The notes beneath the pieces are model-generated. The model saw nothing but the letters and a program-made list of their open reading frames with translations, was not told the DNA's origin and made no database searches. From Pseudomonadota bacterium (lineage in GTDB: Bacteria; Desulfobacterota; Binatia; Binatales; Binataceae): 64,000 nt of DNA. Each line of letters starts with the position of its first letter. Position 1 is the stretch's first letter. A program made the position numbers and the translations under genes. Below are positions 9,710 to 17,612 of the stretch, in pieces. The stretch covers positions 310,001 through 374,000 of the forward strand of contig JAJPIF010000028.1 in NCBI GenBank assembly GCA_021324885.1, given 5' to 3'.

Positions 9710-12916
<3,207 letters not shown>

Positions 12917-13054
12917 TTGCGCTGGTCAGCCCTGTTTTGTTTCCGAAGTCCCACCCAGGGGAGAGGCGTCTCAGGATCTATCGGCGCGAATTCGTGACAC
13001 GATGCGCTCGCCGGCCTGGATGGCGGTGGGCGCACCGTGCCGAAGTTGCAGATG

Positions 13055-15034
13055 TTATTGCGCTTGGTGCTTCTTTTCGTGCGGCGGCGGGCCGTGCGGC
13101 TCTCCGTGTGGATACGCGCCGTAGGGAGCCGCATGCATCTGAGCCGCGCGCTGCGCTTGTATCGCCTGCTGCTGGCGCGCGCGCTCCTGCATCATGGCTT
13201 GCTGCTGTGCCGCTTTCATTTGCGCGGCGCGCTGGTTGTCGATCATCTGCTGGCGCATCCGCTCCAGCGCGGTCTGCTGTTGGGCCCTGAATTGCGCCGC
13301 CCGCTCCGCCTGGAGGGCTTGCTGCCGGCGCATCTGCTGCTGTTCGGCATTTAGCTGAGCCGCACGCTGTCTGGCCAGCGCCTCCTGCCGCGCGCGTTCC
13401 TCAATCGCCGCCTGCTGTTGGCGCTCCAGCATCTGCTGGCGCTCGCGTTGCTGCGCACCCTGTCGAGCGGCGTTGAGCTGGGCCGCGTGCTGCTCCTCCA
13501 AGGCCTGCTGGCGCGCCCGTTCCTGAGCCGCCTGTTGGGCGGCCCAGCCGGCTTGCTGATGCTCCAACGCCTGTTGATGGGAATTCATTGGCGCCTGCCG
13601 GGCTGCATTGCGCTCCAGCGCGCGCTGATTCATCAACGCCTCCTGGCGCGCGCGCTGGGCGGCCTGCTGCGCCGCCTGCGTGACTCGCTGTTGCTGGGCC
13701 GCGGCCTCCAGTTGGGCCCGCTGGCGCGCGCTGTTCAACTGCGCCAACTGCTGCGCGTTAAGCAGGTTCCTGGCCTGCGCCTGCTGTAGAGCCAGCTGCT
13801 GCATCCGCTGCTGTTGCTGATGCATCGCGGCCAGTTGCTGCTGCAATTGCCGCTGCTGCACCCGCTCGCGCGCGGCCGCCTGCGCCAGGGCCGCATTGCG
13901 TGCAATCACCTGTTGTTGCTGTTGCGCCGTCAGTTCTGCCATGCGCATCGCGCGCTGGCTTTGGATCTGCTGATGAACGATCGCCTGCTGCATCGCGAAC
14001 GTCCACTGCGGATGGCGCTGCTGGATGTATTGAGGGTCACGGGCACCCCACCAGTAAATATCGTGCCAGCGATGGTTGCGGTCGTAGTCGCCGTACCAGT
14101 CCGGATGATGTTGCGCGGCCCAGGCCGGATTGCGCATGTACCACCAGCTATCCGGATGCCAGACCCGCCGGTCATCGTAATCGCCCCACCAATACGGATG
14201 ATTGACGCGAACCCAGTCGGGGTCGTGATGCCACCACCACGGGGCCGGGCGCCAGACGTCGTCGTCGTCATAGTCGCCCCACCAGTCCGGATGGCGGACG
14301 ACCACCCACTGCGGATTCTGCGTCATCCACCATCCGGCCGGGCGCCACACATGCATATCGTCATAATCGCCCCACCAGTCGGGATAGTTTTCCATTACAT
14401 ACTGGGGCTGATTGGCGTACCACCACGACGCTGGATACCAGATCCCTTGGTAAGGAGCACCCCACCAGTCAGGGTAATTGGTCATCACATACTGGGGTTG
14501 ATTGGCGTACCACCAGGAAGCTGGGTACCACGCGCCCTGATAAAATGCGCCCCACCAGTCGGGATGGTATAATCGCACCCAATCCGGGAAATTAGCCACC
14601 CACCATCCAGCCGGGTACCAGGTGCCCTGGTAAAATGCGCCCCACCATTCCGGGTGATGACGATAGACCCAGTTGGGCTGATGCGTCCACCACCAGTCGG
14701 CCGGCCTCCAGATGTGGTTGTCATCCCAATCGCCCCACCATTCGGGATGGTAGCGGCGGACCCAGCCCGGATCGTTTTGCCACCACCAATCCGCCGGGCG
14801 CCAGATACCGCCGCTGTCGGGCGCACCCCACCACGTCGGGTGATGTTGCCGCACCCAGTCGGGATGATTGGCCCACCACCAGGATGCGTCATGCCATTGA
14901 TGGGCGTCGTCATAGTCGCCATAGCCTGGCGGGTTGGCGAATTGGGCAGAAGCCGGAGGACTGCCGTAGATGCAGGCAATCGCAATTATGATACAAAGGA
15001 CGAGCGCCGCGGCTATAATTTGCGTGATCCTCAT
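13055..15034 (-). CDS. Exported protein with ten Trp-rich repeats and a long Gln/Ala coiled coil
   Basis: A 659-residue protein of no family I recognise. The start at 15034 was chosen because GGCGGAGAA lies just upstream; an in-frame ATG at 15100 would put 22 charged residues before the signal peptide. Residues 1-30 are a signal peptide with an ASA-Q cleavage site. Residues 40-344 are ten tandem units of 30-31 residues of the form DYDDxxxWRPAxWWWxxxPxWVxxxHPxWWG, holding about 60 tryptophans. Residues about 345-635 are an uninterrupted Gln/Ala/Arg/Met-rich helix, almost certainly coiled coil. The tail is His/Pro/Gly-rich. A cell-surface, envelope-spanning or ligand-binding structural role is possible, but nothing in the sequence proves a function. 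It converges on carB and diverges from recG. Confidence 0.85.
   Translation of the reverse strand: MRITQIIAAALVLCIIIAIACIYGSPPASAQFANPPGYGDYDDAHQWHDASWWWANHPDWVRQHHPTWWGAPDSGGIWRPADWWWQNDPGWVRRYHPEWWGDWDDNHIWRPADWWWTHQPNWVYRHHPEWWGAFYQGTWYPAGWWVANFPDWVRLYHPDWWGAFYQGAWYPASWWYANQPQYVMTNYPDWWGAPYQGIWYPASWWYANQPQYVMENYPDWWGDYDDMHVWRPAGWWMTQNPQWVVVRHPDWWGDYDDDDVWRPAPWWWHHDPDWVRVNHPYWWGDYDDRRVWHPDSWWYMRNPAWAAQHHPDWYGDYDRNHRWHDIYWWGARDPQYIQQRHPQWTFAMQQAIVHQQIQSQRAMRMAELTAQQQQQVIARNAALAQAAARERVQQRQLQQQLAAMHQQQQRMQQLALQQAQARNLLNAQQLAQLNSARQRAQLEAAAQQQRVTQAAQQAAQRARQEALMNQRALERNAARQAPMNSHQQALEHQQAGWAAQQAAQERARQQALEEQHAAQLNAARQGAQQRERQQMLERQQQAAIEERARQEALARQRAAQLNAEQQQMRRQQALQAERAAQFRAQQQTALERMRQQMIDNQRAAQMKAAQQQAMMQERARQQQAIQAQRAAQMHAAPYGAYPHGEPHGPPPHEKKHQAQ
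14003..14917 (-). repeat. Ten tandem coding repeats of about 90-93 bp (Trp-rich units)
   Basis: Each unit ends in His/Tyr-Pro-x-Trp-Trp-Gly (Trp-Tyr-Gly in unit 9). Units alternate between a DYDD-type start (1, 3, 7-10) and an AFYQG/APDSG-type start (2, 4, 5, 6). Units 5 and 6 are almost identical in protein and DNA, pointing to recent duplication. The repeats stay in frame with no stop, so they are protein repeats and not a CRISPR or non-coding array. The last unit lacks the final WWG and runs into the coiled coil. Confidence 0.9.
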
Positions 15035-15362
15035 AGCTGTTTTCTCCGCCCGCTTTCTTTTAGCTCGTATGGCGTCGAAACTATCCCTTTTGGAAAACAT
15101 TGAAATACCATTTCAGTCGTTGAAGGGAAGCGCTGATGCCGCATGAACAAAAGAAATCCCCGAAAGTAAACGTTAAATTGAAACTCATAGCCTGAAACTG
15201 AATACTTGCACCGGGTCGGATACGCAAATTGCCTGCCGATTCGGTTGTAAGAAAAAGCACGACAATTTGCGCAACATTTCATGATCTTTGTAATTCTGAC
15301 AATCAGAATCCCGCGCTAGGCAAAACCAACGTCCCTGTCCACAAAGGCAAGCCGTCACACTC
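15035..15362. promoter_or_regulatory. Divergent intergenic region between the Trp-repeat gene and recG, with two operator-like dyads
   Basis: A stretch of 328 bp without a gene, clearly more AT-rich than its surroundings. It must hold the promoters of both flanking genes. Two perfect inverted repeats stand out. TGAAAT-ACC-ATTTCA at 15101-15115 lies 67 bp upstream of the Trp-repeat start. ATTCTGA-CAA-TCAGAAT at 15293-15309 lies 54 bp upstream of recG. Both have the arm length and 3-bp spacing of small dimeric repressor sites. I could not assign convincing -35/-10 boxes. Confidence 0.4.
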
Positions 15363-17612
15363 ATGATACTTGCCGCTGATTTGCGCGAGCATGACAATCA
15401 CGAGACAAAGACGATCAGCGTGGGGAGTTCGCTTACGAGTCCAATCAAAATCGCCCGTGTCTCAGCCCGGCCGAAAAGGAAAGATCGGGTCGAGGCCGGT
15501 AAACGTGCGTCGGAGCCGCCTCTGACGCCAGGCAGCCCCCTGTCAACCCTCGCCGGAATTGGCCCCAGGCGTGCGGCCACTCTGGCTGCTCTTGGCCTGA
15601 CCACGGTCGCCGATTTACTGATGGCCTTTCCGGTGCGTTATGTGGACTGGCGAGAAATTAAAGGGGTACATGAAATTGTAGCGGGCGAAATAGTCACGGT
15701 TGCGGGCCGCCTGACCGCGCTCAGCGAGCGTCCGATGCGCGGTTCGCGATGGCGCCGGCTGCTCGCTGGATGGCTTCAGGACGGGCAGGGCAGGCGCCTG
15801 CGCGTCGTCTGGTTCAACGCGCCGCCCCGTTTGCGCCAACGCTTTGCCGCCGCCTCCGAGGTGCTGGTCCAAGGCAAAGCCGTTCGCGGCGCAGACGGTC
15901 AGATCGAGATTGTTCATCCTGAGGTGCATATCCCCGGTCAGGATCCGCCTTTCCTCCTGCAGCCCGTATATCGTGCCGGTGAGCAGGTGGGCCAGCGGCT
16001 GATGAGGGCCGCCGTCGATCGAGCGCTGAGCTGCGCCGATGCTTTGTCTGGCGCCTTGCCTGAGGAGTTTCGCGTAAAGCTTCAATTGCCCACGCTACCG
16101 CAGGCCGTCCGCTATCTGCATCATCCGCCGCCCGACGCCGATCTCGAAGCGTTGCGCGCCGGCGCTACGTCCGCCCATCAGGCGCTCGCCGCCAGCGAAA
16201 TGTTCGCATTTGAACTGGCGCTTGAACTTGATCGCAAATCGGCGCGCGCGCGCACTGGCATTGCCTTTGATGACAGCGCCGCGGCCGATCGGTTTGCCGC
16301 CGATTTGCCTTTCGACCTGACCTCCGCGCAGCACCGCGCGATTGACGAGATCCGCGCCGACATGGCACAGCCGCGGCAGATGAATCGGCTGCTGATCGGC
16401 GAAGTCGGCACGGGTAAGACTGTGGTAGCCCTGTGGGCGGTGATCAACGCAATTGCGCATGGCTGGCAGGCCGCGGTGATGACGCCGACCGAGCTGCTGG
16501 CCGAGCAGCATTATGCAACCTTTAACCGTCTGTGTGAAAAAACCGGCTTGCGGGGCTCCTTGCTTTGCGCCAATCTCCCCGCCCCAGAGCGAAGACGGAC
16601 TCTGGAATGGCTGCGCGGCGGCGCGCCCGGCGTGGTGTTCGGCACCCAGGCTCTGATTCAACGATCGGTTGCGATGCCCAGGCTGGGGCTGGCCGTGATC
16701 GACGAGCAGCATCGTTTCGGCGTGTTCGAGCGCGCGCGCCTGCGCGGCCTCGGCCCCCAATCCGACATGCTGCTGCTGACCGCGACCCCGATCCCTCGAA
16801 GCCTGGCGCGCGTGCTGCTGAGCAATCTCGAAGTATCGATTCTCGATCAGCGCCCGGCGGGACGCCCGCCCGTCACCACCCATCTCATCGGGGAAGGGGA
16901 ACTGCCCTCAGTATGGAAGCACGTTCGCGATGAGGCCGCTAAAGGCAATCGCACCTATTGTATCCTGCCGGTGATCGAAAGCGAGGAACGCCAGGACCTG
17001 GCGGCGACTACAGCCGCGCAACAACTGCGCGACGGCGCGCTGGCGGGGCTGCGGATCGGTCTGCTGCACGGACGGTTGTCAGGCGCGGAGAAGGATTCGG
17101 TGATGCGTAAATTCCGCGACGGCAGACTGCAAGTGCTGGTTTCAACCACGGTGGTCGAGGTCGGGATCGACGTGCCGGAAGCGACGGTGATGGTGATCCT
17201 CGGCGCGCAGCGTTACGGGCTTGCCCAGCTCCATCAGTTGCGCGGCCGTATCGGACGCGGGACGCAGCCGGGTCATTGTTTCCTGGTAATCAGCGGCGCC
17301 GCCAATTCACAAGCCCAAAACCGGCTTAAAGTATTGGTTGAAAAAACCTCGGGAACCGAGATAGCTCAAGCTGACCTTGAAATGCGCGGTCCCGGCGACC
17401 TGTTTGGCGGACGCCAGGCCGGACCGCTCCCCCTGCGCTATGCGCATTGGATGCGCAATGTTGATACAATTTTGCAGCTTCGCGATCTTGCCCGGGAATG
17501 GTTGCGGAGAGACCCTGCGCTTGAAACGGCGCAATCGGCCGGCGCGCGTCAGGCACTGGCTCGCTTGCTTGCCGAAGGCGGCGCAGTAGTCGGTGCGCTG
17601 TCGGCCGGATAA
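15363..17612 (+). CDS. recG: ATP-dependent DNA helicase RecG
   Basis: A 749-residue RecG helicase, which regresses stalled forks and processes Holliday junctions. The N-terminal wedge begins with a helix-hairpin-helix-like LAGIGPRRAATLAALGL (about residues 62-78) and an OB-type domain. The SF2 motor carries Walker A GEVGTGKT, the DEQHRFGV motif, LLTATPIPRSLARVLL and the C-terminal QLRGRIGRG block. About 55 residues precede the hairpin and look unstructured, so a start downstream of ATG 15363 is possible. No clear Shine-Dalgarno lies before it. Walker A has Glu and Thr where GDVGSGKT is usual, a conservative change. The Nudix gene follows by 15 bp. Confidence 0.95.
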   Translation: MILAADLREHDNHETKTISVGSSLTSPIKIARVSARPKRKDRVEAGKRASEPPLTPGSPLSTLAGIGPRRAATLAALGLTTVADLLMAFPVRYVDWREIKGVHEIVAGEIVTVAGRLTALSERPMRGSRWRRLLAGWLQDGQGRRLRVVWFNAPPRLRQRFAAASEVLVQGKAVRGADGQIEIVHPEVHIPGQDPPFLLQPVYRAGEQVGQRLMRAAVDRALSCADALSGALPEEFRVKLQLPTLPQAVRYLHHPPPDADLEALRAGATSAHQALAASEMFAFELALELDRKSARARTGIAFDDSAAADRFAADLPFDLTSAQHRAIDEIRADMAQPRQMNRLLIGEVGTGKTVVALWAVINAIAHGWQAAVMTPTELLAEQHYATFNRLCEKTGLRGSLLCANLPAPERRRTLEWLRGGAPGVVFGTQALIQRSVAMPRLGLAVIDEQHRFGVFERARLRGLGPQSDMLLLTATPIPRSLARVLLSNLEVSILDQRPAGRPPVTTHLIGEGELPSVWKHVRDEAAKGNRTYCILPVIESEERQDLAATTAAQQLRDGALAGLRIGLLHGRLSGAEKDSVMRKFRDGRLQVLVSTTVVEVGIDVPEATVMVILGAQRYGLAQLHQLRGRIGRGTQPGHCFLVISGAANSQAQNRLKVLVEKTSGTEIAQADLEMRGPGDLFGGRQAGPLPLRYAHWMRNVDTILQLRDLAREWLRRDPALETAQSAGARQALARLLAEGGAVVGALSAG

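Follow-up and report, generated by a model that had tools for sequence, protein, structure and literature searches.

The tryptophan-rich repeat gene and its locus

The minus strand of the 64,000-nucleotide stretch of DNA analyzed here (hereinafter the window) encodes a protein with a Sec signal peptide read by eye, a head of ten contiguous tryptophan-rich units and a long Gln/Ala/Arg-rich tail. Two kinds of unit are distinguished: the D type, with a nine-letter, mostly acidic start before Trp9, and the Y type, with a YQG...WYP start. Three species of the genus, namely that of the window (G000), G001 and G002, carry the gene, and all ten units align gap-free among them. The features of the locus are as follows:

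9710..12916, plus strand: carB-like neighbor (by eye), convergent; a homologous frame adjoins the gene in G001 and was not seen in G002
13055..15034, minus strand: whole gene, 659 codons plus stop, with the stop at 13055 and the likelier ATG at 15034
13058..14002, minus strand: Gln/Ala/Arg-rich tail (composition and AlphaFold)
14003..14920, minus strand: head, ten contiguous units of 30-31 residues in the order D D D Y Y Y D D D D (unit HMM)
14003..14092, minus strand: unit 10, the closing unit, with Asp11 and without Trp16 or Trp31 (sequence comparison)
14372..14641, minus strand: units 4-6, of the central YQG...WYP type without an acidic start (sequence comparison)
14828..14920, minus strand: unit 1, the entry unit, with WHDA replacing WRPA (sequence comparison)
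14945..15034, minus strand: Sec signal peptide ending PPASA/Q (by eye; the slash marks its end)
15363..17612, plus strand: recG-like neighbor (by eye), divergent; homologous frames adjoin the gene in G001 and G002

The first in-frame ATG lies at 15100, giving a minus-strand frame (15100-13055) of 681 residues. We favor the ATG at 15034 because a GGAG lies upstream of it and the signal peptide MRITQ...PPASA/Q begins there, aligning with the signal peptides of the two orthologs, which end APAAA/Q and PSVSA/Q (alignment, by eye). The export that had been proposed from the window sequence holds on this reading by eye. An Rfam scan of positions 12500-15800 returned no matches, and the sites called by promoter and terminator scans were no more numerous than in shuffled sequences.

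Architecture of the head and the tail

Each of the ten head units is detected by the unit HMM with 35.7-48.5 bits. Tryptophan makes up 60 of the 306 head residues (19.6%), about six per unit, against a background of 0.88% in 13 long frames of the window; the binomial log10 p for 60 tryptophans in 318 residues is about -59. The sequence-only reading, which had described ten units of 30-31 residues with about 60 tryptophans, is thereby confirmed in its counts. Its two unit hallmarks apply to most units and fail in particular ones: the Asp-Tyr-Asp-Asp start is absent from unit 2 (GAPDSG) and from units 4-6 (GAFYQG or GAPYQG), and the His-Pro-x-Trp-Trp-Gly end from unit 9, which ends WYG, and unit 10, which ends QWT.

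An AlphaFold model of the head, built with four sequences, has a mean pLDDT of 78.5 and a pTM of 0.58, with 285 of 311 residues at pLDDT 70-90, and shows the same hairpin and two seven-residue helices in all ten units, mostly with a short additional turn. The model of the whole mature protein has a pLDDT of 67.9 and a pTM of 0.32; with four sequences and these pTM values, the models do not fix the geometry of stacking between units.

Beyond the last HMM unit the tail runs for 315 residues, and Gln and Ala make up 165 of these. AlphaFold folds it into two long helices separated by a break, at residues 313-450 (138 residues) and 458-603 (146 residues) of the 630-residue mature protein, with low confidence at the far end. 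If straight, these helices are predicted to span about 43 nm (284 residues at a rise of 0.15 nm); their prediction is less certain than that of the head because long Gln/Ala-rich stretches are readily called helix. A heptad check of the tail found no 3.5-residue hydrophobic periodicity, so that of the Gln/Ala-rich coiled coil proposed earlier the composition and the predicted helix stand and the coiled coil finds no support.

Conservation within the genus and distribution of the family

Comparison of the three ortholog pairs by the Nei-Gojobori method yielded head dN/dS values of 0.046, 0.057, and 0.052 over 315 gap-free head codons, ratios that are rough because dS is near saturation (1.8-2.5) and clear in direction; the corresponding tail values are 0.13, 0.33, and 0.18. 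By this codon comparison, the Trp-rich array is under purifying selection. Head values of about 0.05 in three orthologs, together with the ordered array and its position-specific end units (see below), argue against a low-complexity or chance open frame without function, which we find hardly credible even though genus g15 has two seemingly broken or misassembled copies, the split one of G058 and the two-unit one of G027.

Searches with a family profile built from 24 units matched 27 of the 41 genomes of the host's taxonomic family; the unit family is dispensable, or was missed, in the other 14, since these show no match. Across the class, the same 27 of 148 genomes matched, leaving none among the 107 that lie outside the host's family; a phylum sample of 395 genomes gave 6 matches, every one within that family (20 best candidates scored per genome). 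A scan of exact 8-residue peptides against 84,980 species, one genome each, recovered three loci, all in metagenome-assembled genomes from Centralia. Such a scan reaches close relatives only, and the range beyond the phylum is judged from it together with searches of phage, plasmid, and viral sequences: plasmid and phage records held no relatives of the head, the plasmids also none of two small proteins, and a degenerate unit pattern had zero exact matches in viral contigs. Going by these profile and peptide matches, the Trp-unit family was found in one bacterial family only within the genomes searched. Its nearest named records are metagenome-assembled genomes, whose envelope proteins are, to our knowledge, mostly undescribed.

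At the fetched loci we recovered at least 59 matching frames, 54 once contained fragments were dropped. Among these 54 are 11 large members from seven genera, with 8-11 units and a tail (that of G023 ends at a contig end), at least 27 proteins with two or three units, and at least 14 with one. The head of the large members is acidic throughout, with a net charge of -17 to -31 in 11 of 11. Several one-unit relatives look like lipoproteins, with a lipobox recognized by eye. The G058 copy of the large gene (L100:5830-7567) consists of two overlapping frames of one gene, with six and four units, reflecting a broken gene or an assembly error.

Many of the two- to three-unit proteins bear an N-terminal domain with an HP...NP...HP motif. 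This is a second undescribed motif domain, almost confined to the same bacterial family: a profile of 18 HP/NP segments matched 7 of 297 genomes of the phylum, six from that family and the seventh from outside it (E 6e-4, with a stop inside the match). Profile comparison of the HP/NP domain with the Trp unit detected no similarity.

Weak matches of this domain and of the small relatives bear on one rival explanation, by which the protein would carry an aromatic or lipid-like small ligand in a groove lined by stacked tryptophans. Besides the roughly six tryptophans available in each unit, it can draw on matches of the haemophore family PF16525 to 11 of the 18 HP/NP segments within an E limit of 1 (the best at 0.0099) and of TIGR04529 to one protein (0.0057). 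However, where bit scores were given these lie under the curated cut-offs (12-16 vs 27.4 for PF16525; 17.5 vs 32 for TIGR04529), and unrelated families score equally well or better, likewise below cut-off (DUF7503, 2e-05, 24.5 vs 27 bits; LRV_2, 0.0017). Moreover, the HP/NP domain is missing from the window protein, and the core tryptophans are equally frequent in small proteins and arrays, as expected for a packed core. A ligand carrier is thus quite improbable.

Array-specific residues and the order of units

The order of units in the array is shared across genera. In all 11 unbroken large members, units of the acidic type follow a central block of the YQG/WYP type, and W[RH]D marks the closing unit; 10 of the 11 (all but G026) also begin with an acidic-type unit. 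This layout was read by eye, and some units are hybrids. For a residue comparison we aligned 177 units: the large arrays contribute 91 internal and 11 last units and the small proteins 75, with G058 and the contig-cut L013 left out. Gly1, Trp9, Trp14, Trp15, Trp22, His27, Pro28, and Trp30 occur often in each of the three classes, with Trp22 often replaced by another aromatic residue in last units. The window protein carries this eight-residue core within 31 residues; as it helped to define the core, its membership holds by construction.

Internal units add Pro11 (80%), Ala12 (86%), Trp16 (58%), and Trp31 (83%) to this core, whereas all 11 last units carry Asp11 and none has Trp16 or Trp31. A separate count put Trp at position 31 in 76 of 91 internal units and in none of the 11 final ones; of the 63 units of small relatives that could be parsed, 4 have it (13 of the 178 units entering this count could not be parsed). 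The Fisher p of 5e-26 for internal units against the rest is overstated, as the sequences are related. Internal units of the arrays abut, with a projected gap of 0 or -1 in 91 of 91, and in the small proteins 22 of 35 pairs of successive units are spaced by 9-10 residues. From the distribution of Trp31 among internal units, final units, and small relatives, we infer that it probably packs neighboring units; together with the regular AlphaFold model, the array-specific Trp16 and Trp31 lend support to the stacking, though not to the surface location, in the earlier suggestion of a stacked surface fiber. The residues in contact with the next unit would be Trp31 and, probably, Trp16 along with the Pro-Ala pair.

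The same alignment allows an alternative reading to be weighed, namely a metal-binding envelope protein in which an Asp2-Asp4-His7-Asp11-His27 set would bind a divalent metal, with the arrays acting as multi-site stores or sensors. Small-protein and final units do keep much of this set (Asp4 in 92% and 100%, His7 in 70% and 90%, His27 in 88% and 100%, and Asp11 in 54% and 100%, respectively), and several one-unit relatives end in His-rich stretches such as HDHDHDHHS. Yet the set is mostly broken in the large arrays, where 80% of internal units carry Pro11 and 40% His7; in the window protein, Asp2 and Asp4 are missing from units 4-6. Nor does the transporter-like neighbor of the large-member gene in G016 (L092:4219-5091) strengthen it, since its product, with an RHATDPDH stretch that presumably recalls nickel/cobalt transporters, has no Pfam match. 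We consider a metal-binding role unlikely.

Gene neighborhoods and turnover

The flanks of the large members, several of which are cut by contig ends, share a single homologous frame across genera (G016 and G020, 45% identical and a few kb off). At 6 of the 26 loci of small members (G057, G059, G032, G011, G020, and G058), a lipoprotein-like gene follows downstream in the same orientation. Pfam detected the OmpA domain (PF00691) in all five of these neighbors tested, the sixth being assigned by eye, and the OmpA-like gene of G058 is split between frames. A uvrB-like gene lies on the other side at all six OmpA loci (by eye, with Pfam run on one). Thus, at L101, L103, L110, L113, L116, and L120, relatives with two or three units sit between uvrB-like and OmpA-type genes, and G057 and G059 hold three and two tandem paralogs, respectively, at this locus. 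The genome that contains the window also has a lipoprotein-like relative with one unit beside an MreB gene (L111:4559-6254), and in G002 a one-unit gene adjoins a gene similar to MreB (by eye). The OmpA and MreB neighbors of the small relatives suggest an envelope role for the family, and the OmpA links may also be mere old gene order, sitting as they do at a uvrB-like anchor.

G016 (L092, 11 units) and G027 (L097, two units) carry the gene at the same locus, their flanking frames being mostly 80-95% identical; the two-unit frame of G027, which has no visible signal peptide, either lost units recently or is a copy damaged by decay or misassembly. The large member of G057 (L099) lies near genes for a phage terminase, a DUF5681 protein, a ParB/methylase, and a transposase-type integrase. 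Although G057 belongs to genus g15, its protein groups with those of genus g1 with a support of 100/100, in a tree in which five of eight inner branches are unresolved, and is 64-66% identical to the g1 proteins versus 52% to that of G016. Given this grouping and the terminase/DUF5681/integrase setting, the gene was probably transferred from a relative of genus g1.

This probable acquisition, the variation of unit number between species (8-11), and the combination of a head with long predicted helices would all suit an adhesin, secreted or on the cell surface, that touches other cells or surfaces with its repeats and has the tail as its stalk. Against this, no surface anchor was seen by eye, and the head is strongly conserved in the genus, unlike a fast-varying adhesin; we therefore doubt that the protein acts as one.

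A putative stacked scaffold of the cell envelope

We tentatively prefer to read the window protein as a structural protein of the cell envelope, with the stacked head as a scaffold or binding face and the tail as a spacer. Sec export and removal of the signal peptide would leave an acidic stacked head joined to a helical tail. In the head, Trp16 and Trp31 would pack successive units together; unit 10 has neither residue and would close the stack. The head would then offer a rigid scaffold or a binding face, most likely to a glycan of the envelope (peptidoglycan or a surface polysaccharide) or to a partner protein there, with the helical tail spacing it from its holding point. The OmpA-type and MreB neighbors and the lipoboxes of the small relatives back the envelope reading; it is weakened in that the OmpA and MreB links concern the small relatives, and no neighbor ties the window protein to a partner.

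Comparison with known families

The sequence-only reading had recognized no family, and every search we made agrees. The whole protein matched no Pfam or NCBIfam family up to E = 10 (HMMER filters drop most weak matches), and all matches listed for ten relatives in these libraries lay below cut-off. Searches of PDB sequences gave nothing credible (best E 0.72 with phmmer and 0.13 with the unit profile); a Foldseek search of the PDB found nothing at E <= 0.001, a search of viral folds nothing at that level either, and none of the 14 chains aligned by VIA-align reached Z 2. A literature search for six peptide strings turned up none of them in any paper. The Trp units form a real, conserved repeat family described by no library searched. 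Possibly, they also represent a new fold, a closed-ended hairpin/two-helix stack held together by array-specific tryptophans, which would have grown in tandem from a free-standing module within one bacterial family and kept the free-standing residue set at its closing end. If so, the single module, the short chain, and the long closed stack would be found side by side among the living members of this undescribed repeat family, and the residues that make a free module stackable could be read off and tested. With 20% tryptophan over 300 residues, the head is an unusual biophysical object that may serve repeat-protein design.

Three known domains invite comparison. The EAGR box (PF16713) of Mycoplasma terminal-organelle proteins is a short motif with many aromatic residues and glycines. 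The structure 4dcz, titled as a domain of a terminal organelle protein of M. genitalium and which we take to be an EAGR box, ranks fifth in the Foldseek search with E 7.5, a probability of 0.04, and a TM of 0.30 of the target; it is absent from the unit-profile search of the PDB up to E 10. A PF16713 search of the window's own genome was negative, as it was in the control genomes. We do not file the protein under the EAGR box. The haem-binding haemophore family (MHB, PF16525) weakly resembles the HP/NP domain of the relatives, a domain that the window protein lacks. Finally, the OmpA family domain (PF00691) is encoded by a gene beside the small relatives and not within the window protein, its link to the Trp-unit family being one of gene order only.
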